This document shows positions 981-27,497 of a stretch of DNA of 46,929 nt, one piece after another. The first letter of the stretch is position 1; each line of letters begins with the position of its first letter. Location: the NCBI RefSeq assembly GCF_003003775.1, contig NZ_PVWJ01000025.1, positions 1-46,929 on the forward strand, given 5' to 3'. Source of the stretch: Merismopedia glauca CCAP 1448/3 (GTDB lineage Bacteria; Cyanobacteriota; Cyanobacteriia; Cyanobacteriales; CCAP-1448). Position numbers and translations under genes: made by a program. A model generated the notes under the pieces. It saw only the letters and a program-made list of their open reading frames with translations. It was not told the DNA's origin and ran no database searches.

Positions 981-2537
981 TTAGCAACTAAGAAATACGC
1001 CACAGCGACGGCGATCGCCTGCGCCTATTATTCCATCTAATGGTGTTTTCATAACGGTATGAACTCCACCAAAAAACATATTTTGCTGATTCCAACTATT
1101 GATAGGAAATTCTCCCAAATCTTGCAGCGCATTAATAGTAGATTCAGCTACTCCAAATTCAATATTAAATAAATCGTCTTCCCAGTGGCATCTAGGGCAG
1201 GAAATAGCAGATGATAAAGGCATTTTCCAATCTAGTAAATTAGAAATAACTTGTAAAATTGCGGTGCGAATTCTTTTAGATCCTCCAGATCCTAAAACAA
1301 TTTCTGGTTGACCATCTTTAAGTAAAATAGTGGGAGACATCATGGAAGAAAGGCGGCAGTTTTCCGTCCATTGATGAAATCCAAAAGGATTGAGATCGTC
1401 TTCGCCTAACATATTATTCATCATGATGCCAGTATGGGGAATCACATAACCAGAACCTTCCCCATTAGAAGTAGTAACTGTGGCTGCATTTCCTTGTTCA
1501 TCTAATACACTAATATGAGTGGTACTCCCCCATTTATTAGGCGATCGCTTGAGGGTTTGCAGATAGATTTCTAGATTAGATGATGAGAGAAACTGTTCCG
1601 CAATATCTGCTTGATAAATATGTGAATCATAGCTATTTTTTCTAGCTTGATTCGTTATTTTCATGATATTTGCTAATAGTTCCAAATGTTGACTACTGCC
1701 AAATTCAAGTTTACTTAAATCAGTCTGAGATAATAATTGCAGAGCAAAGCATAATAGAATTCCTCCCGAACTAGGAGGTGGATTAGTTAATATTTGGCGA
1801 TCGCGATACTGAGTTACTAAAGGTTTTCTTTCAATTACTTGATAGCTTTTAAGGTCTTCTAAAGTGAGATAACCGCCACTTTGTTGGCAATCTCTAATTA
1901 ATTCATGAGCGATTTCACCTGTATAAAATTCTTGACAACCGTATTTAACTAGATATTTTAAAGTTTCAGCCAAGTCTTTTAGGACTAAGCGATCGCCTTG
2001 CTGTAAAACTTGACCGTTAGGCGCAAAAATTTGTTGAGAATCTTGATTTGATAACGCAATTGGTGCTAATAACTGCAAGCAGTAAGCCGAGAATTCACCA
2101 ACTTCTACACCTTTTTCTGCATAATTAATCGCTGGTTCGGCTACTATGTGAAACGGCAGTTTGCCTAGTTTTTGATGAACCTGAGTTATCCCTAAAATAT
2201 TACCTGGGGTAGCAATAGAACCTTTGCCAATATGAAAAGTTTGAATCGCACCACCAAAGTTTAAATTAATGTCGCGAAATTCAACTTCAGATCTAGGTCT
2301 TTTTTGCAGAGGAGTTTGGGTAAAAAAATCAAATAGAGTGTTTTCTCCAGCTTCGGTATGTGCTAGTAAAAACCCGCCTCCGGCTGGAGATGTTAGCATT
2401 GGTTCGACGACAAATGAAGCCAAAACGGCTGCTGTAGCTGCATCAAAAGCATTACCTCCAAGTTGCAGCATTTCTATCCCAGCAGTAGCGGTTTTCTCAT
2501 GTCCAGCCGCGATCGCACCATGATTTGTTTGATTCAT
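981..2537 (-). CDS. ggt: gamma-glutamyltransferase
   Basis: Glutathione hydrolase / gamma-glutamyltransferase of 518 residues. It cleaves the gamma-glutamyl bond of glutathione and related peptides and transfers the glutamyl group to water or amino acids. The family is an Ntn-hydrolase that self-cleaves before a threonine. Here the site is in STTHISVLDEQGNAATVTTS, with nucleophile Thr340. The oxyanion region LGSGGSKRIRTA (about 415-426) and the early GGNAFDAATAA (27-37) match the family. No signal peptide is visible with this start, although many bacterial relatives are periplasmic. The protein is slightly shorter than the E. coli enzyme. It is transcribed alone, leftward. Confidence 0.93.
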   Translation of the reverse strand: MNQTNHGAIAAGHEKTATAGIEMLQLGGNAFDAATAAVLASFVVEPMLTSPAGGGFLLAHTEAGENTLFDFFTQTPLQKRPRSEVEFRDINLNFGGAIQTFHIGKGSIATPGNILGITQVHQKLGKLPFHIVAEPAINYAEKGVEVGEFSAYCLQLLAPIALSNQDSQQIFAPNGQVLQQGDRLVLKDLAETLKYLVKYGCQEFYTGEIAHELIRDCQQSGGYLTLEDLKSYQVIERKPLVTQYRDRQILTNPPPSSGGILLCFALQLLSQTDLSKLEFGSSQHLELLANIMKITNQARKNSYDSHIYQADIAEQFLSSSNLEIYLQTLKRSPNKWGSTTHISVLDEQGNAATVTTSNGEGSGYVIPHTGIMMNNMLGEDDLNPFGFHQWTENCRLSSMMSPTILLKDGQPEIVLGSGGSKRIRTAILQVISNLLDWKMPLSSAISCPRCHWEDDLFNIEFGVAESTINALQDLGEFPINSWNQQNMFFGGVHTVMKTPLDGIIGAGDRRRCGVFLSC

Positions 2538-2941
2538 TAGATTGGTGGCAAAACTCTTGAATAATAAGGGTTATAGATTATTATCTACTGAAAGTAACAA
2601 AAGAGAAATAAACCTGATTGACAAACAAAATGCACTACGTTTATATTTGAATTATGCAAACGAATATCAAGCTTTTGATGTTTGTCTCATGTGTACTACC
2701 TCCAATTCTCAGATCAATGTTTACCCAGGATTCTGGTTTAGTCATTATCTAGAGGTTGAGGTTTAGCCTATAGATTTAGACTGGTTCAGCATACTAGGTA
2801 TGCACTGGTTTGAGGGTTAGAGGTAGTGCGTTTGAGACGTTTATCAATCAGCAATGAAGTAGAACAATAGCTGCCTGAAGCGGTATTTCTACTAGTTGTT
2901 TGGTGTTCTGATGCTAGTTAACAATATTAAAGGTTACTAGT
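2538..2941. other. intergenic region, no confident gene
   Basis: About 400 bases between the divergent ggt and HNH genes. It holds one weak open frame of 74 codons from a TTG at 2542, with no recognisable product and no good ribosome site. I see no terminator, repeat or RNA gene. Promoters for both flanking genes probably lie here but I cannot place them. Confidence 0.5.
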
Positions 2942-3178
2942 ATGAATGCGAGACAGAAAAGAAGCAAGAAAGCAGAACTTGCTAAAGAACAGGGTTCTTG
3001 CTGTTGGTGGTGTCGTTGTCATTTACCATTACACAAGCTAACAATTGACCATTTAAAGCCTAAAAGTAAAGGGGGTTCTAACTCATCAGAAAATCTTAGA
3101 TTGGCTTGTTTTGAGTGCAATAATTCTCGTGGAAATAGCCTCTATCCACCCGAACGGATATATAAAATTCGTTCCTAA
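2942..3178 (+). CDS. small stand-alone HNH endonuclease
   Basis: A 78-residue HNH nuclease with little beyond the domain itself. Two structural zinc-type cysteine pairs are present, C21/C24 and C56/C59. Between them lies the catalytic core LTIDHLKPKSKGG with D36-H37, then N51 and N60 in the ENLRLACFECN segment. The order CxxC-DH-N-CxxCN is the standard HNH arrangement. The first 15 residues are strongly basic (RQKRSKK), fitting DNA contact. No phage gene, restriction partner, intron or reverse transcriptase is recognisable next to it, so its biological role is unknown. It starts at an ATG with a weak AAAGG ten bases upstream. Confidence 0.8.
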   Translation: MNARQKRSKKAELAKEQGSCCWWCRCHLPLHKLTIDHLKPKSKGGSNSSENLRLACFECNNSRGNSLYPPERIYKIRS

Positions 3179-3187
3179 ATCCACTTT

Positions 3188-3228
3188 GGTAAGTAGATAT
3201 TTACTTTAACCAAGTTTATCTACTTACC
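3188..3228 (+). terminator. 12-bp hairpin after HNH gene
   Basis: Arms GGTAAGTAGATA (3188-3199) and TATCTACTTACC (3217-3228) are perfect inverted repeats with a 17-nt loop, starting 9 bases after the HNH stop codon. There is only a short T-stretch afterwards, so termination is plausible but not certain. Confidence 0.45.
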
Positions 3229-3365
3229 TTTGCGGTATTATGGCAGTTCCCCATTAACTGAAGTACAGATTAATTGTCTAAAATTCTTGTGGGATAGGTA
3301 TCTTATTGGCTTTATCCCACAAATGTATGCAAGGCAAATCAAAACTGCTATAAGTAACTGTAAAA

Positions 3366-4049
3366 ATGCATAAATTTTTGATATTTAAGGATGAAAAACT
3401 GCTCCGACGCGCCCTTACTCATAGATCCTATGCTAATGAAAATCCTGGAGATACAGGAGATAACGAACGGCTAGAGTTTTTGGGAGATGCGATTCTGACA
3501 TTTTTAAGCGGCGAGTATCTTTATCAACGCCACTCGGAAATGGGAGAAGATGAAATGACACGCCGACGTTCGGTACTTGTGGATGAAAAACAGTTGGCTA
3601 AATTCGCAATGGAAGTGGGATTAGATTTTAGAATGCGTTTAGGACAAGGATTAATTCGAGATGGCGGCTACCAAAATCCGAATCTCCTCAGTAGTACCTT
3701 GGAAGCGGTGATTGGTGCTTATTATTTAGACAACAATCGAGATATGGAAGTGGTTCGTTCTTTAGTAGAAGAATTATTTGATTCTGTACCTCAAGGAATT
3801 GCTAGTATTCGCTCAAATGTGGATTCAAAAAACCAATTTCAAGAATGGGTACAGGCGAATGGTTCCACAAATCCTCCTAAGTATGCTACAGAAAAAATAG
3901 GTGGAACAGATCACGCTCCAGAATTTCTTTCTAAGGTATATGTAGAAGATAAATTTTATGGTGAAGGTAAAGGGCGTAGTAAAAAAGATGCAGAAAAACA
4001 GGCGGCTGAGAACGCTTTAATGAAGCTTAAGAAAAGAGGTTTATTGTAA
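3366..4049 (+). CDS. rnc: ribonuclease III
   Basis: Double-strand-specific endoribonuclease of 227 residues, used in rRNA and mRNA processing. The RNase III signature ERLEFLGDAIL occupies residues 34-44 with the metal-binding acidic residues, and the second acidic motif LEAVIGAYYLD is near 110-120. A double-stranded RNA-binding domain fills residues about 150-225 (KNQFQEWVQANG ... GEGKGRSKKDAEKQAAENAL). The length and two-domain order are normal for bacterial Rnc. The N-terminus is short, beginning just before the first nuclease helix. It converges on lpxB with only a 10-base gap. Cyanobacteria often carry more than one RNase III-like gene, so paralogues may exist elsewhere. Confidence 0.95.
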   Translation: MHKFLIFKDEKLLRRALTHRSYANENPGDTGDNERLEFLGDAILTFLSGEYLYQRHSEMGEDEMTRRRSVLVDEKQLAKFAMEVGLDFRMRLGQGLIRDGGYQNPNLLSSTLEAVIGAYYLDNNRDMEVVRSLVEELFDSVPQGIASIRSNVDSKNQFQEWVQANGSTNPPKYATEKIGGTDHAPEFLSKVYVEDKFYGEGKGRSKKDAEKQAAENALMKLKKRGLL

Positions 4050-4059
4050 AAAAGGTGAG

Positions 4060-5304
4060 TTAAAGTAACAGGAGATTGATAATTTTTTGAGCAGCGCGAT
4101 CGCATACCCCCAATTCTCCTATTTTTGCCCGCATTTCCTGATAGTCTTGGCTGATTTGTTGGCGCTTTTCTGGGTTTTGAATCAGAGGAATAGCTTCGTT
4201 AAAAATGTTTTCGGCTGAGGCTAAATCTTGCATCAATTCGGGAACAATAGAGCGCATTAAAACTAAATTAACTGGAGACATAAAGGGAATTTTTAATCGT
4301 AAAATATTCATTCCCAGCCAAAAGGTAATGGGATTAACGCGGTAAATCACTACTTGGGGGACATTTAATAGAGCCAATTCTAGATTTACAGTCCCCGATT
4401 TTGTAATAGCTAAATCGGCTGCGGCTAAAACTTCAGGAGTGCGATCGCTCACTAAGGTAGCATTTAATTTGTAGCGAGCAATTGCCTCTTCAATTGTTTG
4501 GCGATAAGCTTCTAAAGAGAGGGGAATCCAATAGCGAACGTGGGGAATTTGGCTTTGAATTTGAGCGGCGGCTTGGAAAATTACTGGTAGTAAATATTTT
4601 AACTCTTGAGGGCGAGAAACGGGCAGCAGGGCGATCGCTGTTTCTCCATCACCTATACCCAAACTAGCACGCGCTGCTTGACGAGTGGGAAAATGACTGA
4701 TGCGATCAAGTAAGGGATGTCCTATCCAATCTACATTGGCTTGATGATATTGGTAGTAACGAGCTTCTTCTGGAAAAATAGCTAATAAGAGATCGCAACT
4801 TTTGACAATGCGCTGGGTGTTTTTCAAACTGACAGAAGCAACCCACTCTTGAGGCGCGATGTAATAGACGATGGGTACTTGAGTCCAACTTTTCCTTAGA
4901 TAAGCCCCAATACTCAAATTTGGCTCCATGTAGTCAATTAAAATGACTAGATCGGGTGGGTGTGTTTCCAGATATTTTTTGGCTTGGCGTTGAATGTTGA
5001 GGGTGGGGAGGATGAATTGTAGTGATTCGATGATTCCAACTGAACCTATTGCCGTGGTATTAGCTAAGATTTTAGCCCCAGCTTGCGCCATGCGATCGCC
5101 CCCCAATCCCACTATCTCTAATTCGCAATTCAGGCGTTCTGCTTGACTCAATAAAGCTTCAATCAACATCGCCCCTTGTAAATCGCCAGATACTTCCCCG
5201 GTACTGATAAAAATCTGGAATTTACGAGCTTTACTAGAACTAGAGGCGGAATTTACAGACAGCGAATCAATCTCAGAGGTATCACTAAATCCTTCAGTTT
5301 CCAT
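4060..5304 (-). CDS. lpxB: lipid-A-disaccharide synthase
   Basis: GT19 glycosyltransferase of 414 residues. It joins UDP-2,3-diacylglucosamine to 2,3-diacylglucosamine-1-phosphate to form the lipid A disaccharide at the inner membrane. Diagnostic motifs are ISTGEVSGDLQGA (about 33-45), the PPDLVILIDYMEPN segment, YYIAPQEWVAS, and the C-terminal KSGTVNLELALLNVPQVVIYR UDP-sugar region. A serine-rich N-terminal extension of about 28 residues precedes the conserved core. The ATG at 5304 has GGAG upstream and is acceptable, but a shorter start is possible. It is the last gene of the leftward bamA-lpxC-fabZ-lpxA-lpxB cluster, 39 bases after lpxA. Confidence 0.95.
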   Translation of the reverse strand: METEGFSDTSEIDSLSVNSASSSSKARKFQIFISTGEVSGDLQGAMLIEALLSQAERLNCELEIVGLGGDRMAQAGAKILANTTAIGSVGIIESLQFILPTLNIQRQAKKYLETHPPDLVILIDYMEPNLSIGAYLRKSWTQVPIVYYIAPQEWVASVSLKNTQRIVKSCDLLLAIFPEEARYYQYHQANVDWIGHPLLDRISHFPTRQAARASLGIGDGETAIALLPVSRPQELKYLLPVIFQAAAQIQSQIPHVRYWIPLSLEAYRQTIEEAIARYKLNATLVSDRTPEVLAAADLAITKSGTVNLELALLNVPQVVIYRVNPITFWLGMNILRLKIPFMSPVNLVLMRSIVPELMQDLASAENIFNEAIPLIQNPEKRQQISQDYQEMRAKIGELGVCDRAAQKIINLLLL

Positions 5305-5343
5305 ACCTAACTCTCCGTTCCCCCTTGTCCCCCTTGTCTCCCT

Positions 5344-6162
5344 TTACTCTCCCGATTCTGCATTCTTCATCCTCTTACCAGGAACCAAGCCCCGACGACC
5401 AGCTTGCTGAGATAATCGTATAAAGTGGGATAAATGTTGCAATTTTTCCGTTTCTAGCAAGGAATCTAACTTTTCTATAGCCTCATTCAAACTCAGTTGA
5501 GAGCGATATAGTATCCGAAAAGCGCTTTTAAGTTGTGCTAATTCTGCTGAAGTAAAACCAGCGCGTTTGAGTCCTACCAAGTTGAGCGATCGCACTTGAG
5601 CGGGGTAACCTTCAACTAGCATATAAGGAGGCACATCGCGGACAATTTTGGTCATCCCGCCGATCATAGCTAATCTACCTATATGGACAAATTGGTGAAT
5701 TCCTGAAACTCCACCAATTACTGCTTGTGACTCGATATGAACGTGACCAGCTATAGCCACAGCATTAGCAATTACCACCAAATCGTCAATCTGGCAGTTA
5801 TGAGCCACATGAACGTAAGCCATGAGCAAATTATGGCTACCAACTCGCGTCACCTCTCCCACATCTGTCGCGCGGTTAATGGTGACATATTCTCGAAAGC
5901 AGTTTCCGTCGCCTATTTTGACTAAACTCAGAGCGCCCTTATACTTGAGGTCTTGGGGTTCCAAACCAATGGCTGCACCTGGGAAAATGCGATTATTCGC
6001 CCCAATTTCTGTTGGTCCTTCGATGACAGCATGAGCGCCAATAGTTGTCCCAGCCCCTATAGTAACGCGATCGCCAACTACAGCATAAGCGCCCACTTCT
6101 ACAGTAGAGTCTAGTTGAGCGCCAGGGTGAATCACAGCCGTCGGATGAATCAGTGTTTTCAT
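5344..6162 (-). CDS. lpxA: UDP-N-acetylglucosamine acyltransferase
   Basis: First enzyme of lipid A synthesis. It transfers a 3-hydroxyacyl chain from acyl carrier protein to UDP-GlcNAc in the cytoplasm. The 272-residue protein opens with repeated hexapeptides (IHPTAVIHPGAQLD..VEVGAYAVVG..VTIGAGTTIGAHAVI) that form the left-handed beta-helix. The catalytic histidine is H121 in YVHVAHNCQIDD. The C-terminal helical part (about 195-265, LKRAGFTSAELAQLKSAFRILYR) matches the family. It lies 13 bases downstream of fabZ and is almost certainly cotranscribed with it. Confidence 0.96.
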   Translation of the reverse strand: MKTLIHPTAVIHPGAQLDSTVEVGAYAVVGDRVTIGAGTTIGAHAVIEGPTEIGANNRIFPGAAIGLEPQDLKYKGALSLVKIGDGNCFREYVTINRATDVGEVTRVGSHNLLMAYVHVAHNCQIDDLVVIANAVAIAGHVHIESQAVIGGVSGIHQFVHIGRLAMIGGMTKIVRDVPPYMLVEGYPAQVRSLNLVGLKRAGFTSAELAQLKSAFRILYRSQLSLNEAIEKLDSLLETEKLQHLSHFIRLSQQAGRRGLVPGKRMKNAESGE

Positions 6163-6175
6163 TAAATTTTGTTCG

Positions 6176-6715
6176 TCAGTCTACCAAAGAGAACATTAGT
6201 TCTCCTTCTGCTACTAGCTGACCATCTACTTCAGCTTTGGCTTGCATCTTACCAAACCGACGTCTCTTGACGCACAACAGTTCCGCCGTCAAAATCAGTT
6301 GATCTCCTGGAATCACGGGGCGACGAAATCGAACTTTGTCAATTCCGGCAAAAACAAACAAATTTCCGTCAATATCTGGGAGTTGAATCAGAACAATACC
6401 ACCAACTTGAGCCATAGCTTCAACTATCAGTACCCCAGGCATCATTGGTCGTCCAGGGAAATGTCCTTGGAAGTGAGGCTCATTGAAAGTCACATTTTTC
6501 AAGCCTACAGCTTTTTCTCCTGGAATGTAATCAATTATCCTGTCTACTAGGGCAAATGGGTAACGATGAGGTAATAGTTTCTGGATATCTTCAACATTCA
6601 GAACTTCTTTGGTTGCGGTTGGAGAATTGAGAACCACTTGCGACTTATCTGGAGTTGATTCAGTTGTGTGCTTACTTTCCAACTCCGGCTGGTTAACATC
6701 AACTAGTACGGACAT
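6176..6715 (-). CDS. fabZ: 3-hydroxyacyl-ACP dehydratase FabZ
   Basis: Hot-dog-fold dehydratase that removes water from 3-hydroxyacyl-ACP in fatty-acid elongation. It competes with LpxA for hydroxyacyl chains, which fits their adjacency. The motif [13 protein letters not shown] (48-60) and the active-site segment [20 protein letters not shown] carry catalytic H85 and E99. The protein is 179 residues, longer than the usual 140-150. The excess is a polar N-terminal extension of about 38 residues rich in Thr, Ser and Glu. The true start could be internal, though no better ribosome site was obvious. It is third in the lipid A cluster, separated from lpxC by a 242-base spacer. Confidence 0.95.
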
Positions 6716-6957
6716 GAGTACTCTTTACAATTTTAGGGGCAAAGGCAGAGCGGCTGTGTTCCAACATCTGAGGTCCAAGTTACTGGATCTCTTGGCTCAA
6801 ATACATGGATTTTGAGCTACCCGACGGCGATCGCTAAACGATAGGACACGGGCTTCCAACTTTACTGGTATAAGTTTAAATTTTATTAATAAATGTACTT
6901 CTCTTCAAGACCATAGCAATTAAATCGTTACTCTTAGTAAGATGGGCAATGCCTATC

Positions 6958-7887
6958 CTACATTAATTGCGCTATTGTTTGAGCTAGTTGAATGTGCAGA
7001 TGGTGGCTGGCTTTATAGGCTATGTAATGAGCTTGGGGAATAGTTCCGACTAGGCTCAAATCTCCGATCAAATCTAGGAGTTTATGACGCACAGGTTCAT
7101 CTGGAAATCGCAGAGGTGGATTGAGCCAACCATCGCTGTCGCAGACTAAAGCATTATCTAGACTGCCACCTTTAATTAAACCAGCCGATCGCAATGCTTC
7201 TATTTGATGGGCTAGTCCAAAAGTGCGGGCTGGGGCAATTTCTTGAGCAAAACTCTCGGTTTCTGGCTTAAATGTAGACCATTGCTTACCTATGGGGGCT
7301 AAATCAAAGTCAATTCCATAAGTGTAGCGGATGGTAGGTGCAGGTAGGGCAGCCACAAAGGCATCACCTTGACGCACCCAAATCGGTTCAGAGATTGATT
7401 TCACAGGTATTGGGCATTGGGTCATTGGTTTTCTGGCGGATGCTTCTTGCTCTATACTCAAAACGGCGGGCGTTAAACTTTGGTCAGCGACTTCAGAAAT
7501 CAACCCAGATTCAGAGATAAATTCGATCCAGGGTCGGGCAGAACCGTCCATTAAGGGCACTTCAGAGCCATCGATTTCAATTCTGGCATCCTCTATTCCC
7601 AACCCGACTAAAGCTGCTAAAAGATGCTCTACAGTCCGCACGCTAGCTCCTGCACAAGTCAACTGGGTTGATAGGGTAGTTTCGCTAACGGAGGCAATTT
7701 GGGCGGGAATTATCGGATTATTTGGCAGGTCTGTACGCACAAAATACCGTCCACTTTGAGGTGGCGCAGGTAAAATGCGGACACTCGTTCTAATGCCGCT
7801 ATGGAGTCCAATGCCAGAAAGTGCGACTGGAGAATCGATCCTAGATGGCGATCGCATGGCTTTATAAGTACCTGTGCAAATTAACAT
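6958..7887 (-). CDS. lpxC: UDP-3-O-acyl-N-acetylglucosamine deacetylase
   Basis: Zinc-dependent deacetylase carrying out the committed step of lipid A synthesis. The 309-residue protein shows SGIGLHSG near residue 24, the first zinc histidine H88 in [11 protein letters not shown], and the [12 protein letters not shown] segment (about 268-279) that supplies the second histidine and the zinc-binding aspartate. The duplicated beta-alpha-beta architecture fits the length. The ATG at 7887 was kept. A second ATG at 7857, giving [10 protein letters not shown], is equally credible and would match the usual short N-terminus better. It lies between bamA and fabZ in the leftward envelope cluster. Confidence 0.95.
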
Positions 7888-23064: not shown

Positions 23065-23687
23065 ACTATATCAGAGATGGAGATGAAATCTATCGCCGTT
23101 CCTTTGCTACTATCCGTCAAGAAGCGAATTTGAAAGATTTGCCCAGCGATCTGGTTTCGGTTGCGGTTAGATTGATTCATACCAGTGGGATGACCGATAT
23201 TGTCGCAGATTTAGCCGCTTCCCCTCAAGCTGCTACTATGGGAAGGGCGGCATTAGCTGCTGGTTGTCCGATTTTCTGCGACGCGCAAATGGTGGCAGAA
23301 GGAATTACCAGAAAGAGATTACCAGCCAATAACTCCGTAATTTGTACTTTGAATCAGCCTGAAGTTCCTGAATTAGCTAAAAAGCAAAGAAATACTCGCT
23401 CAGCCGTGGCGCTAGAACTCTGGTTACCTGAATTAGCAGGCGCGGTAGTGGCTATAGGTAATGCTCCTACAGCTTTGTTTCATTTATTAGAGTTATTAGA
23501 TACAGGAGCGCCTAAACCTGCCATAATTCTGGGTTTTCCCGTCGGTTTTATTGGTGCAGCCGAATCCAAAGCCGAGTTAGCTGCAAATAGTCGCGGAGTG
23601 CCCTTTATTACTCTACACGGAAGACGGGGAGGAAGTGCGATCGCCGCCGCCGCAATTAATGCATTAGCCAAGGAAAGCGAGATATGA
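23058..23687 (+). CDS. cobH: precorrin-8X methylmutase
   Basis: A 209-residue isomerase moving the C11 methyl to C12 to give hydrogenobyrinate. The conserved sequence RLIHTSGMTDIVADL includes the catalytic histidine. Other motifs are FCDAQMVAEGITRKRLP, VVAIGNAPTALFHLLEL, GFPVGFIGAAESKAEL and GRRGGSAIAAAAINAL, in family order. Its ATG overlaps the cobG stop by 7 bases and its stop overlaps cobI by 4 (ATGA), so the three are translationally coupled. Length normal. Confidence 0.95.
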   Translation: MLNYIRDGDEIYRRSFATIRQEANLKDLPSDLVSVAVRLIHTSGMTDIVADLAASPQAATMGRAALAAGCPIFCDAQMVAEGITRKRLPANNSVICTLNQPEVPELAKKQRNTRSAVALELWLPELAGAVVAIGNAPTALFHLLELLDTGAPKPAIILGFPVGFIGAAESKAELAANSRGVPFITLHGRRGGSAIAAAAINALAKESEI

Positions 23688-24505
23688 GTCAGGAATCAGG
23701 AGTCAGAAGTCAGGAGTCAGGAGTCAGAAGTCAGGAGGAACATCCAATACCCGACAATCAACAATCAAGAATAGGTAAATTATACGGTTTGGGGATCGGT
23801 CCTGGCGATCCAGAGTTGCTGACGCTGAAGGCACATCGCATTTTGACGACTGTGCCAGTAATCGCTTATCCGACGATGGAAAATGGTAAGGTTTTGGCAC
23901 GGGCGATTGTAGCTGACTTTATTCGTCCAGATCAGATAGAAATTCCCATGCCGTTACCTTTTAGTGTGGAAAGATCTTCTCAACCTTATTACGATCTTGG
24001 CGCAGAAAAGATTGCAGAACACTTGAGTGCTGGAAGAGACGTAGCCGTGCTGTGCGAAGGTGAGCCGATGCTTTATGGTACATTCATGTATCTATTCAAT
24101 CGGCTGTCAGGGCGGTTTGATACTGAGATTGTACCTGGTATTTCTTCCACGATGGCTTGTGCGGCGATGCTGGGTGCGCCAATTACTTACAGGAATGATG
24201 TCTTTAGTATTATGCCAGCGACGCTAGATGCAGATACATTGCGCGATCGCCTAGCTGTTGTAGATGCCGCCGTAATTATCAAGTTGGGCAGGCATTTTGC
24301 TAAAGTTAAAAGTATTTTGGCAGAATTAGGGCTACTAGATCGCGCCCTCTATATCGAACGCGCCACCCAACCAACTCAGAAAATAGTGGCGATCGCTGAT
24401 GTAGATTCTGCTAATGTACCATATTGGTCTTTGATTCTCATTCCCAGTAAATATGAGTTCGGAGTTCGGAGTTCGGAGTTCGGAGTTAAGAGTAGGATGG
24501 GTTAG
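23684..24505 (+). CDS. cobI: precorrin-2 C20-methyltransferase
   Basis: SAM-dependent methylase of 273 residues making precorrin-3A, the substrate of CobG. The core is normal: LYGLGIGPGDPELLTLKAHR (about 30-49), CEGEPMLYGTFMYLFNRL and EIVPGISSTMACAAMLGAP. Both ends are odd. Residues 2-17 are two copies of SQESGVR plus SQE, encoded by a 7-nt repeat; three heptamers make seven codons. The C-terminus KYEFGVRSSEFGVKSRMG comes from a second heptamer tract (AGTTCGG) and ends inside a palindromic element. No internal ATG lies before the conserved core, so the ATG overlapping cobH is kept. The extra tails probably hang off a functional enzyme. Confidence 0.93.
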   Translation: MSQESGVRSQESGVRSQEEHPIPDNQQSRIGKLYGLGIGPGDPELLTLKAHRILTTVPVIAYPTMENGKVLARAIVADFIRPDQIEIPMPLPFSVERSSQPYYDLGAEKIAEHLSAGRDVAVLCEGEPMLYGTFMYLFNRLSGRFDTEIVPGISSTMACAAMLGAPITYRNDVFSIMPATLDADTLRDRLAVVDAAVIIKLGRHFAKVKSILAELGLLDRALYIERATQPTQKIVAIADVDSANVPYWSLILIPSKYEFGVRSSEFGVKSRMG

Positions 24506-24623: not shown

Positions 24624-25610
24624 ATGATTTGCTGCCTCAACCCCGACTGCGACAAACCACTCAACCCCGATACCCACAAGCATTGCGAGAATTGTGGCAC
24701 AACTTTAGTCGCCTTCCTCAGAAACCACTACAAGATTGTCAAACCGCTAGGTAGAGGTGGATTTGGCAAAACCTACCTGGCTGAAGATACAGACAAACTC
24801 AACGAACCTTGCGTCGTCAAACAACTAGCATACCAAGCACAGGGCACTTGGGCAGCCAACAAAGCCAAAGATCTATTTGAACAAGAAGCCAAACAACTCC
24901 AACGCCTCAACGCAAACTCCCAAATTCCTACATTACTAGCTTATTTTGAAGAAGGGAATTTCTGGTATTTAGTGCAAGAGTTTGTTGATGGAGGAGATTT
25001 ACTCAAGGAATTGAATGAAAAAGGCACATTCAGCGACATCAAAATTCGAGAATTACTACTAGATGTTTTACCCATCCTCAAATTCATTCACGAAAAAGGA
25101 GTAATTCATCGAGATCTCAAACCAGAGAATATCATGCGACGGCAGGATGATGGCAAACTCGTCTTAATTGACTTTGGAGTCGCCAAGTTAGCCACCCCTT
25201 CCATGATGACTCGTATCGGAACTCAAATTGGTTCTCAAGGATATGCTTCTTTAGAACAGATCTTACACGGTCAGGCTAACCCTAGTACAGATTTATTTAG
25301 CTTAGGTGCATCCTGCTTTCATTTGCTGAGTCAAACCCACCCATATAACTTATGCATCCAAAAAGGTTACGATTGGGTGAATAGCTGGCGCGAACAGGTA
25401 TCAACGAAAGTTACGCCAGAATTGGGTCATATTTTAGACAAGTTACTCAAAAGTAACCCAGAGGAACGTTACAAATCGGCGATAGAGGTGCTAGATGATT
25501 TGCAGCCACCACAGGTAGTTATTCTACCACCACCACCGCCTACACCAAAGCCAACTATACTAACTTCAATTAAAGCTGGTATACTTGCCACCCTATTCAG
25601 CCGACTTTAA
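24624..25610 (+). CDS. 4-Cys-type Ser/Thr protein kinase, 3' end interrupted
   Basis: Kinase of 328 residues. An N-terminal zinc-ribbon-like segment (C3, C4, C9, C21, C24) is followed by a complete Hanks-type kinase domain (about 35-292). The ATP loop is GRGGFGKTYLAED (43-55), the lysine is K66, the catalytic loop is HRDLKPEN from H162, and the DFG aspartate is D183. A Pro-rich hinge (PPPPPTPKP, 302-310) leads into 18 residues that are not native: they read through an IS630-type remnant out of frame and stop. Relatives usually continue into a C-terminal domain, and a piece of that continuation lies at 25816-26048. The kinase domain itself looks intact and may still be active. It is inserted between cobI and cobJ. 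Confidence 0.88.
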   Translation: MICCLNPDCDKPLNPDTHKHCENCGTTLVAFLRNHYKIVKPLGRGGFGKTYLAEDTDKLNEPCVVKQLAYQAQGTWAANKAKDLFEQEAKQLQRLNANSQIPTLLAYFEEGNFWYLVQEFVDGGDLLKELNEKGTFSDIKIRELLLDVLPILKFIHEKGVIHRDLKPENIMRRQDDGKLVLIDFGVAKLATPSMMTRIGTQIGSQGYASLEQILHGQANPSTDLFSLGASCFHLLSQTHPYNLCIQKGYDWVNSWREQVSTKVTPELGHILDKLLKSNPEERYKSAIEVLDDLQPPQVVILPPPPPTPKPTILTSIKAGILATLFSRL

Positions 25611-25812
25611 TCCCATTGAAAATTGTTGGTCAAAAGTCAAGGAATTTTTACGTTCCAAAGCAGTTCCTACCTACGAGGCCCTTGATGATGCTATTAATTA
25701 GAGCATTCGATTCTGTCACGCCCAAAGACATGATTGGTTGGTTCACTCATTGCTGTTACTACGTCCCAAACCACACCTCAGACTGTATTGCACTCATATG
25801 AGAACCGCTATA
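25570..25812 (+). mobile_element. IS630-family transposase 3' remnant
   Basis: The sequence encodes the C-terminal part of an IS630-type DDE transposase in two frames. LPPYSADFNPIENCWSKVKE and EFLRSKAVPTYEALDDAIN lie in one frame, ended by a stop at about 25698. FDSVTPKDMIGWFTHCCYY continues in another. It holds the last catalytic glutamate region (NPIE). The 5' two-thirds of the element is missing and a frameshift breaks what is left. It sits in the Pro-rich hinge of the kinase gene. The edges are approximate; no clear terminal repeats were found. Confidence 0.75.
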
Positions 25813-25815
25813 TTC

Positions 25816-26048
25816 CTCCTCCAACTCCTCAATCTATTCCCACTTCACTAGCAACTCCGAAATTAAGGCAATTTGAATTTGAAGTGGTGACGTTAACACA
25901 AGTAGCTACCATCAAAGTTATCGAAGAGAAAGGCTTTTGGGGGAATAAGAAAACTAGAGAAACCACCGAAATCAGTTTGCAAACTCAAAAAAACTGCCAT
26001 CAAGCCCAGTTTTATTTTGATATAAGCCTTAACTGTTACACCATATAG
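25816..26048 (+). pseudogene. orphaned 3' fragment of the kinase gene
   Basis: The open sequence right after the IS remnant reads PPPTPQSIPTSLATPKLRQF followed by EFEVVTL, resuming a Pro-rich hinge like the one at the end of the kinase. In cyanobacterial 4-Cys-type kinases an FEFEVVTV-like phrase typically introduces a C-terminal formylglycine-generating-enzyme-like domain; this is recalled, not searched. Here it continues as KVIEEKGFWGNKKTRETTE and stops at 26048 before any such domain. It has no start codon of its own and is probably untranslated debris. Confidence 0.6.
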
Positions 26049-26117
26049 ATCCTGGCAAAACCCGCCCCTACCAACTATTTTATATTTAATTATGCCCACT
26101 TACTTATCTAAACCGAA

Positions 26118-27497
26118 ATGAAGCCGCCTGCGATCGCCATTTTGGGAGAGAATAGTCTTCCTATTGCCCGTAAAATTCAACAAATACTGCCTGAAGCTGT
26201 AATCTACGGGTTGGTTAACCGCACTCAGTCGGCTGATGTGACTTATACAAGCTTTGGGGAAACAATACGGGAATTATTTACAAGTAATACCCCAATAATT
26301 GGGATTTGTGCGGCAGGAATTCTGATTCGCACTCTAGCGCCATTAATCTCAGATAAGCGACAGGAACCGCCAGTTTTAGCGATCGCCGAAGATGGTAGTG
26401 CAGTAGTTCCCTTATTAGGCGGATTGCACGGCGTTAATGACTTAGCCCGTCAAATTGCCGCAGGTTTACAGGTTTTACCAGCAATTACAACGACTGGTGA
26501 TATTCGCTTCCGTACTGCTTTGCTATCTCCTCCTGCTGGATATTATTTAGCTAACCCAGAGGATGCCAAAACCTTCATCTCCGATTTACTAGCTGGGGCG
26601 AAGGTTAGATTAGAAGGAAGCGCACCTTGGTTGACTGAGAGTCAGTTACCGATTTCAGCCGATGGAGAATTAACCATTCGAGTCACTCAAGATGTGGTGG
26701 AATCAGCCCCGAATTGCTTGGTTTATCATCCCCAAGGTAAACTAGCGATCGTCGGGACAGGCCCTGGCAGCCCAGAATGGATGTCTCCAGAAGTGAAAGA
26801 GCTTTTGCTGTCAGCTACAGATTGGGTAGGCTACACCACTTATCTTAATTTAGTCGAACCCTTGCGGCAAAGTCAACAACGGCACGATTCCGACAACCGA
26901 GTCGAACTAGATCGAGCGCGATTAGCCTTGAATTTGGCAGCAGAGGGGCGATCGGTTGCTTTGATTTCTTCAGGAGATCCAGGCATTTTCGCAATGGCAG
27001 CAGCCGTATTTGAGGTCTTAGAACAAGAAAATCAACCCCAATGGCAACAGATCAAAATCCAGGTAGCTCCAGGAATTTCTGCCCTGCAAGCAGCAGCATC
27101 GCGGATTGGTGCGCCCATAGGTCACGATTTCTGCGCTATTTCCCTGTCAGATATCCTCAAACCTTGGGATATTATTGAAAAAAGGATTGCCTCTGTCGCC
27201 GAAGCTGACTTCGTTATTGCATTCTACAACCCAGTCTCCAAACAGCGCACCTGGCAATTAGAAAGAACGCGAGAAATACTATTGCAGTGGCGATCGCCCG
27301 ACACTCCCGTGATATTAGCCAAAAATGTTGGTAGAGTAGGGGAATCGGTAGAAGTGCGATCGCTTCATCAACTATCTGCTGATGAAGTCGATATGCAAAC
27401 CTTGGTACTAGTCGGTTCTAGCCAAACCCGCATCATCAAGCATCCACAGCAAATCTGGGTTTATACTCCCCGTCGCTACGATGCAGCCAATGGATAA
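26118..27497 (+). CDS. cobJ: CbiG-CobJ fusion, precorrin-3B C17-methyltransferase
   Basis: A 459-residue fusion. Residues 1-about 200 are CbiG-like (GICAAGILIRTLAPLISDKR, DGSAVVPLLGGLHGVNDLA, TTTGDIRFRTALLSPP), which in the anaerobic pathway opens the ring-A lactone. Residues about 208-455 are the CobJ/CbiH methylase, with LAIVGTGPGSPEWMSPEV, ISSGDPGIFAMAAAVFEV, APGISALQAAASRIGAPIGH and FVIAFYNPVSKQRTWQ. It methylates C17 with ring contraction. Such CbiG-CbiH fusions are common in cyanobacteria. It is separated from cobI by the broken kinase gene, which may have split an older continuous cob cluster. Confidence 0.94.
   Translation: MKPPAIAILGENSLPIARKIQQILPEAVIYGLVNRTQSADVTYTSFGETIRELFTSNTPIIGICAAGILIRTLAPLISDKRQEPPVLAIAEDGSAVVPLLGGLHGVNDLARQIAAGLQVLPAITTTGDIRFRTALLSPPAGYYLANPEDAKTFISDLLAGAKVRLEGSAPWLTESQLPISADGELTIRVTQDVVESAPNCLVYHPQGKLAIVGTGPGSPEWMSPEVKELLLSATDWVGYTTYLNLVEPLRQSQQRHDSDNRVELDRARLALNLAAEGRSVALISSGDPGIFAMAAAVFEVLEQENQPQWQQIKIQVAPGISALQAAASRIGAPIGHDFCAISLSDILKPWDIIEKRIASVAEADFVIAFYNPVSKQRTWQLERTREILLQWRSPDTPVILAKNVGRVGESVEVRSLHQLSADEVDMQTLVLVGSSQTRIIKHPQQIWVYTPRRYDAANG

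Follow-up and report, generated by a model that had tools for sequence, protein, structure and literature searches.

Kinase frame and IS630 remnant between cobI and cobJ

The window analysed here is the whole 46,929-nucleotide stretch of DNA from Merismopedia glauca CCAP 1448/3, contig C25 of a draft genome of 5.2 Mb in 254 contigs. A gap among its cobalamin genes, with cobI upstream and cobJ downstream, is the site of a Ser/Thr kinase frame followed by two foreign fragments. The features of this locus are:

23684–24505, + strand: cobI/cbiL, precorrin-2 C20-methyltransferase, the upstream neighbour (TIGR01467, over cut-off)
24624–25569, + strand: Hanks-type Ser/Thr kinase and first half of a Pro-rich hinge (PF00069, motifs)
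24630–24707, + strand: 4-Cys prefix of the kinase (NF045510, residues 3–28, 33.3 bits against a cut-off of 24)
25570–25812, + strand: IS630 right-end fragment, ending in GAGAACCGCTATA (NF033545; 82% identity to locus L184; three-frame translation)
25813–26014, + strand: second half of the hinge, PPPTPQSIP...QFEFEVVTL...QAQFY, in the kinase frame (match to the hinges of C15 and C113; frame)
26015–26106, + strand: right ~90 nt of a ~130-nt interspersed MITE-like repeat, which supplies a stop at 26046–26048 (82.6% identity to locus L017)
26118–27497, + strand: CbiG-like N-terminus and cobJ, precorrin-3B C17-methyltransferase, the downstream neighbour (TIGR01466, over cut-off)

The open frame from 24624 to 25610 encodes 328 residues, with its stop at 25608–25610. 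Pfam finds a full Ser/Thr kinase domain at residues 36–284 (PF00069, E 2.5e-40), and the four catalytic motifs searched for, the G-loop, the VVKQ lysine, HRDLKPEN and DFG, are all intact; the APE-like position reads GYASLEQ. With these and the NF045510 match, the protein is a Hanks-type Ser/Thr kinase with a 4-Cys prefix, and its kinase domain is complete, as the original prediction had held. There are no stops and no frame shifts across the 328 codons. We also compared it with relatives from 28 of 29 loci, L154 being excluded for its broken frame. At the 88 near-invariant columns, defined as identical in 96% or more of the 28 relatives, the window kinase deviates three times; the relatives deviate zero to six times, one of them more than three times and three of them exactly three, and the count for the window kinase would by itself neither prove nor exclude kinase function.

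Models for CbiG match the N-terminal half of the downstream frame (26118–27497), all of them below their cut-offs. Short in-frame tandem repeats stand at both ends of cobI, SQESGVRSQESGVRSQE at its start (23687–23735) and SSEFGVRSSEFGVKS at its end (about 24454–24489).

The kinase runs into a Pro-rich hinge, PPQVVILPPPPPTPKPTILTSIK, and an IS630 fragment begins there. The 43 residues translated from 25570–25698 match positions 251–292 of the 299 in NF033545, the NCBIfam IS630 transposase (E 7e-12); the score of 45 bits lies below the whole-protein cut-off of 100, as expected for a fragment. At the DNA level the remnant is 82% identical over 238 nt to L184, an IS630 element from genome G215 of the same order that has both inverted ends, about 1.05 kb apart, and whose transposase is itself read in two frames. 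Homology starts at about 25573–25579 and, to L184, fades upstream of 25579. An IS630 fragment starting where the kinase ends in its hinge had been predicted from the sequence, and both this claim and the coordinates 25570–25812 proved correct, within about ten bases on the left.

Like IS630-family insertion sequences, the fragment has the transposase C-terminal end and the right inverted end, GAGAACCGCTATA, which ends at 25812. It differs from them in that only about 240 nt, the right quarter of an element, are kept, and in a one-base shift: compared with L184 the remnant carries an additional base, at which the first transposase frame hits a stop, so that the frame of the remnant is broken. 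The left inverted end is absent, and the fragment thus lacks the pair of inverted ends with a TA target duplication that marks a whole IS630 element. No other copy of the IS630 piece was found in the genome beyond the window, and a search of a plasmid collection gave partial matches in four records (one kinase, two annotated IS630 elements and one unannotated).

The divided hinge and the probable loss of an FGE domain

Past the IS630 fragment the Pro-rich hinge resumes as PPPTPQSIPTSLATPKLRQFEFEVVTL and reads QFEFEVVTL. The frames at 24624 and 25734 are the same, and when 25570–25812 (243 nt) was omitted in silico, a single open frame ran from the kinase through the hinge and QFEFEVVTL to 26048; frame agreement by itself has a chance of one in three. 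In addition, the tail at 25815–26015 matches the hinges of two genes in this genome that join a kinase to a formylglycine-generating-enzyme-like (FGE) domain, C15 (E 6e-13, 53% identity), a single-frame member, and C113 (E 1e-7, 52%), which lacks the start of its kinase. The resumption of the hinge and the continuous frame were thus as originally predicted.

Behind the hinge, homology stops. The hinge of C15 and C113 leads straight into the FGE domain, whose start reads QAEFFSEYLDG or QANYFVEDLGG. The window hinge reads QAQFY, and its homology to these two then ends at 26014. We found no PF03781 (FGE-sulfatase) domain after the hinge, no Pfam match of any kind in 25734–26045, and, among the 20 PF03781 matches in the genome, none on contig C25. 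A MITE-like repeat starts exactly where the FGE domain should begin; the junction sits in a run of T, and both the left ~40 nt of the repeat and the whole FGE domain are absent from the window. Because the FGE domain was lost at this junction (26014/26015), the output domain was lost separately and not through the IS630 element. The original prediction was right that an output domain is missing, but the insertion sequence does not explain the loss, and this second lesion had been overlooked. Its claim that the 3' piece of the gene is still present likewise applies to the hinge and not to the 3' domain.

The repeat itself is dispersed. Positions 26015–26106 align at 82.6% identity to positions 42–131 of a 136-nt query around the L017 copy, and a 131-nt query around the repeat gave at least 30 matches in the genome, the window's included (40 of 91 candidates scored). 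Near-full-length copies of about 130 nt are present elsewhere in the genome, and the ends of the L017 copy form imperfect inverted repeats, with 17 of 23 bases pairing when counted by hand. Nezha, cited in a review (PMC10969869, as far as its available part goes), is a cyanobacterial MITE; the window's repeat resembles such elements in being short and dispersed, with inverted ends (TAAGTA...) that match imperfectly. We also considered whether the repeat had carried the lost domain elsewhere, and found no support for this: within about 1.5 kb on each side of all 20 FGE matches in the genome, no copy of the repeat was found at E 0.01.

Kinase-FGE genes in this genome and in relatives

Kinases with this architecture are on record. 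Many cyanobacterial kinases carry DUF323, among them cbSTKII with DUF323, according to the accessible portion of PMC2176072, and DUF323 is described in an excerpt of PMC1262709 as a family including FGE-related proteins. The window gene resembles the Ser/Thr kinases with a DUF323/FGE-sulfatase C-terminus, as presented in that portion of PMC2176072, in its N-terminal kinase, its hinge and its F-x-F-E-V-V-type phrase; it differs from them in having no FGE domain and a hinge split by an IS630 remnant. The architecture is thus a known one and the locus a decayed case of it: to judge from its sequence, the window gene is a remnant of a kinase-FGE (DUF323) gene rather than a member.

By searching with the window kinase around the 20 FGE matches of the genome, we found nine further loci, so that ten in all, the window included, join or once joined an FGE domain to a matching kinase. 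Kinase and FGE domain share one frame at six of them (C2, C15, C30, C54, C119 and C201), the kinases of C30 and C54 being more distant (31–34%, matching only from residue 36). In C119 the exact phrase QFEFEVVT stands between the FGE domain and a kinase 49% identical to that of the window, in a single frame. C119 is thus a homologue that joins a kinase to a QFEFEVVT-containing region, and C15 and C113 have hinges of the same type; these homologues and the continuous frame support the proposal that a two-domain signalling protein was reduced to a kinase-only one.

Four of the ten loci appear broken: the window, C17, C113 and C9. In C17 (L198, G000:C17:33000-40000; 2989–3111) the FGE domain is interrupted by about 100 nt with 11-nt direct repeats, CAATATAGCCC, on either side; this insert is likely a MITE with its target duplication, its inverted ends being recognised by eye. 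C113 (L197, G000:C113:4000-11000; 2671–4317) is a kinase-FGE frame without the first 88 kinase residues. In C9 (L228) the kinase stops near residue 113–140 and the last part of an FGE domain follows out of frame, probably the product of an internal deletion in a kinase-FGE gene. The breaks in C9 and C113 may be errors of the draft assembly.

FGE-fold domains occur in this genome in a second setting, two diversity-generating retroelements (DGRs), each with an FGE-fold variable protein, bAvd, a reverse transcriptase and a template repeat. We take the lectin-like domain of cyanobacterial DGR proteins to be of the same fold class as PF03781. The DGR on C49 (L195, G000:C49:20000-29000; about 1178–6579) looks complete, with GLPIGNLTSQF in its reverse transcriptase and a second FGE-fold variable protein downstream, and that on C96 (L196, G000:C96:4000-13000; about 1088–7046) has the same layout. 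The FGE domain of the second variable protein of C96 was matched in two pieces, so that this gene may be interrupted. The C49 template differs from its two variable regions at 18 and 12 of 26 adenines and at none of 88 other sites; the C96 template differs from its own two at 15 and 14 of 31 adenines and at one of 83 other sites in each case. In contrast to this adenine-only pattern of DGR variable proteins, the kinase-FGE paralogues compared, six of the nine, show 18–33 non-adenine differences from both templates and so do not look like current DGR targets; the idea that the lost domain had been such a target is unsupported for the same reason. Nothing was found at E 0.001 when the DGR loci were compared with six kinase-FGE loci by blastn. 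In the available part of PMC7517822, cyanobacterial DGRs diversify a C-terminal C-type-lectin-like domain that is often joined to a Ser/Thr kinase, and its authors suggest there that this domain could act as an autoinhibitor or decide which substrates are used. Neither FGE nor sulfatase appears as a word in the main text of PMC7517822.

Similar kinases occur elsewhere in the order: 98 of 243 genomes, the present one included, have kinases at E ≤ 1e-85, which apart from the window are at most 60% identical. We read the tails of 29 such loci (L147–L175) by eye. Fourteen were WD40-like, six FGE-type (L149, L150, L151, L155, L157 and L171) and nine other, short or cut, with L147, L161 and L167 running off their sequence stretches; an automated pattern flagged four of the 29. 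All four proteins from other genomes that were given to Pfam (L067, L150, L155 and L171) carry both PF00069 and PF03781. Among the best 80 of 578 relatives in a contig scan, L067, from an Acaryochloridaceae MAG, reaches 59% identity and carries both a kinase and an FGE domain; the other 79 are 26–37% identical. A search with the window's tail across the 243 genomes, of low sensitivity given the few first-look candidates per genome, matched this genome only, the one in which the genus is represented. The one other genome of the family among the remaining 242 gave no match to the tail and no DNA match to the hinge.

At the cobalamin locus, no kinase lies between cobI and cobJ in any of the five relatives that have both in the fetched DNA (G022, G023, G031, G035 and G037); in G037 about 860 nt separate the two genes, without a kinase match. 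Of 40 genomes searched, 11 apart from the present one gave a cobJ match; these five are among them, and in the remaining six cobI was out of reach. It therefore seems that the kinase joined the cobalamin cluster at a later time, and no intact orthologue at this locus was found among the genomes searched.

Proposed history of the locus

The anatomy of the locus, its frame, the paralogues and both foreign fragments are observed directly, and the kinase-only remnant is explained by two mobile-element scars rather than a single one. Very probably a gene of 4-Cys kinase, hinge and FGE domain stood between cobI and cobJ and was truncated by two separate events. An IS630 element would have inserted into the hinge, and its left three quarters would later have disappeared; the roughly 240 nt that remain extend the kinase by about a dozen foreign residues, followed by a stop. 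On the simplest reading, a deletion would have taken the whole FGE domain together with the left end of a MITE-like repeat standing downstream. We infer that both losses were deletions, and from the paralogues that the ancestor at this site was of the kinase-FGE type. If the gene is expressed, it would yield a kinase-only protein some 328 residues long, which has presumably lost its ligand- or partner-sensing part.

It is very doubtful that the kinase was always a single-domain protein behind which an unrelated fragment with QFEFEVVT had landed. Other C-termini are common among the nearest kinases of the order, and the shared frame could have arisen by chance one time in three, but the Pro-rich hinge stands on both sides of the IS630 fragment in the same frame and is of the type found in the kinase-FGE paralogues.

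How the truncated gene should be regarded is a question on which we give a working kinase and a recent pseudogene about equal weight. That the entire locus with its kinase is a dead pseudogene, the kinase looking complete only because the damage is recent, seems to us an evenly balanced proposition: there are two lesions, the IS630 remnant is itself frame-shifted, three more kinase-FGE genes of this genome appear broken, and only one of the 28 relatives (range zero to six) exceeds the window kinase's three deviations in 88 near-invariant columns, with three others equalling it; however, 328 codons have stayed free of stops and frame shifts and the four catalytic motifs searched for are intact. 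The same complete domain and intact motifs suit a shortened gene that still works as a kinase-only regulator and has escaped the control of the FGE-fold domain, as does the proposal, in the part of PMC7517822 available, that a C-terminal lectin-like domain on such kinases could be autoinhibitory. We regard this as a real though slightly less than even possibility, judged from sequence features, against which stands the fact that paralogues C9 and C113 are broken in such a way that no whole kinase remains. It is improbable that loss of the FGE-fold sensing domain has been recurrent and selected in this lineage, with mobile elements cutting kinase-FGE regulators, here to a freed kinase beside cobalamin genes, while two DGRs diversify the same fold in other proteins.

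The two-event truncation involves no new mechanism: gene decay of this sort is familiar, and the locus adds one more example, well documented but fairly ordinary. It would be worthwhile to count broken kinase-FGE genes across genomes, given that they recur within this one, and the truncated kinase is a ready test case for whether an FGE-fold domain inhibits or directs its kinase. The locus is a natural example of mobile elements pruning domain architectures in the large kinase repertoire of cyanobacteria.
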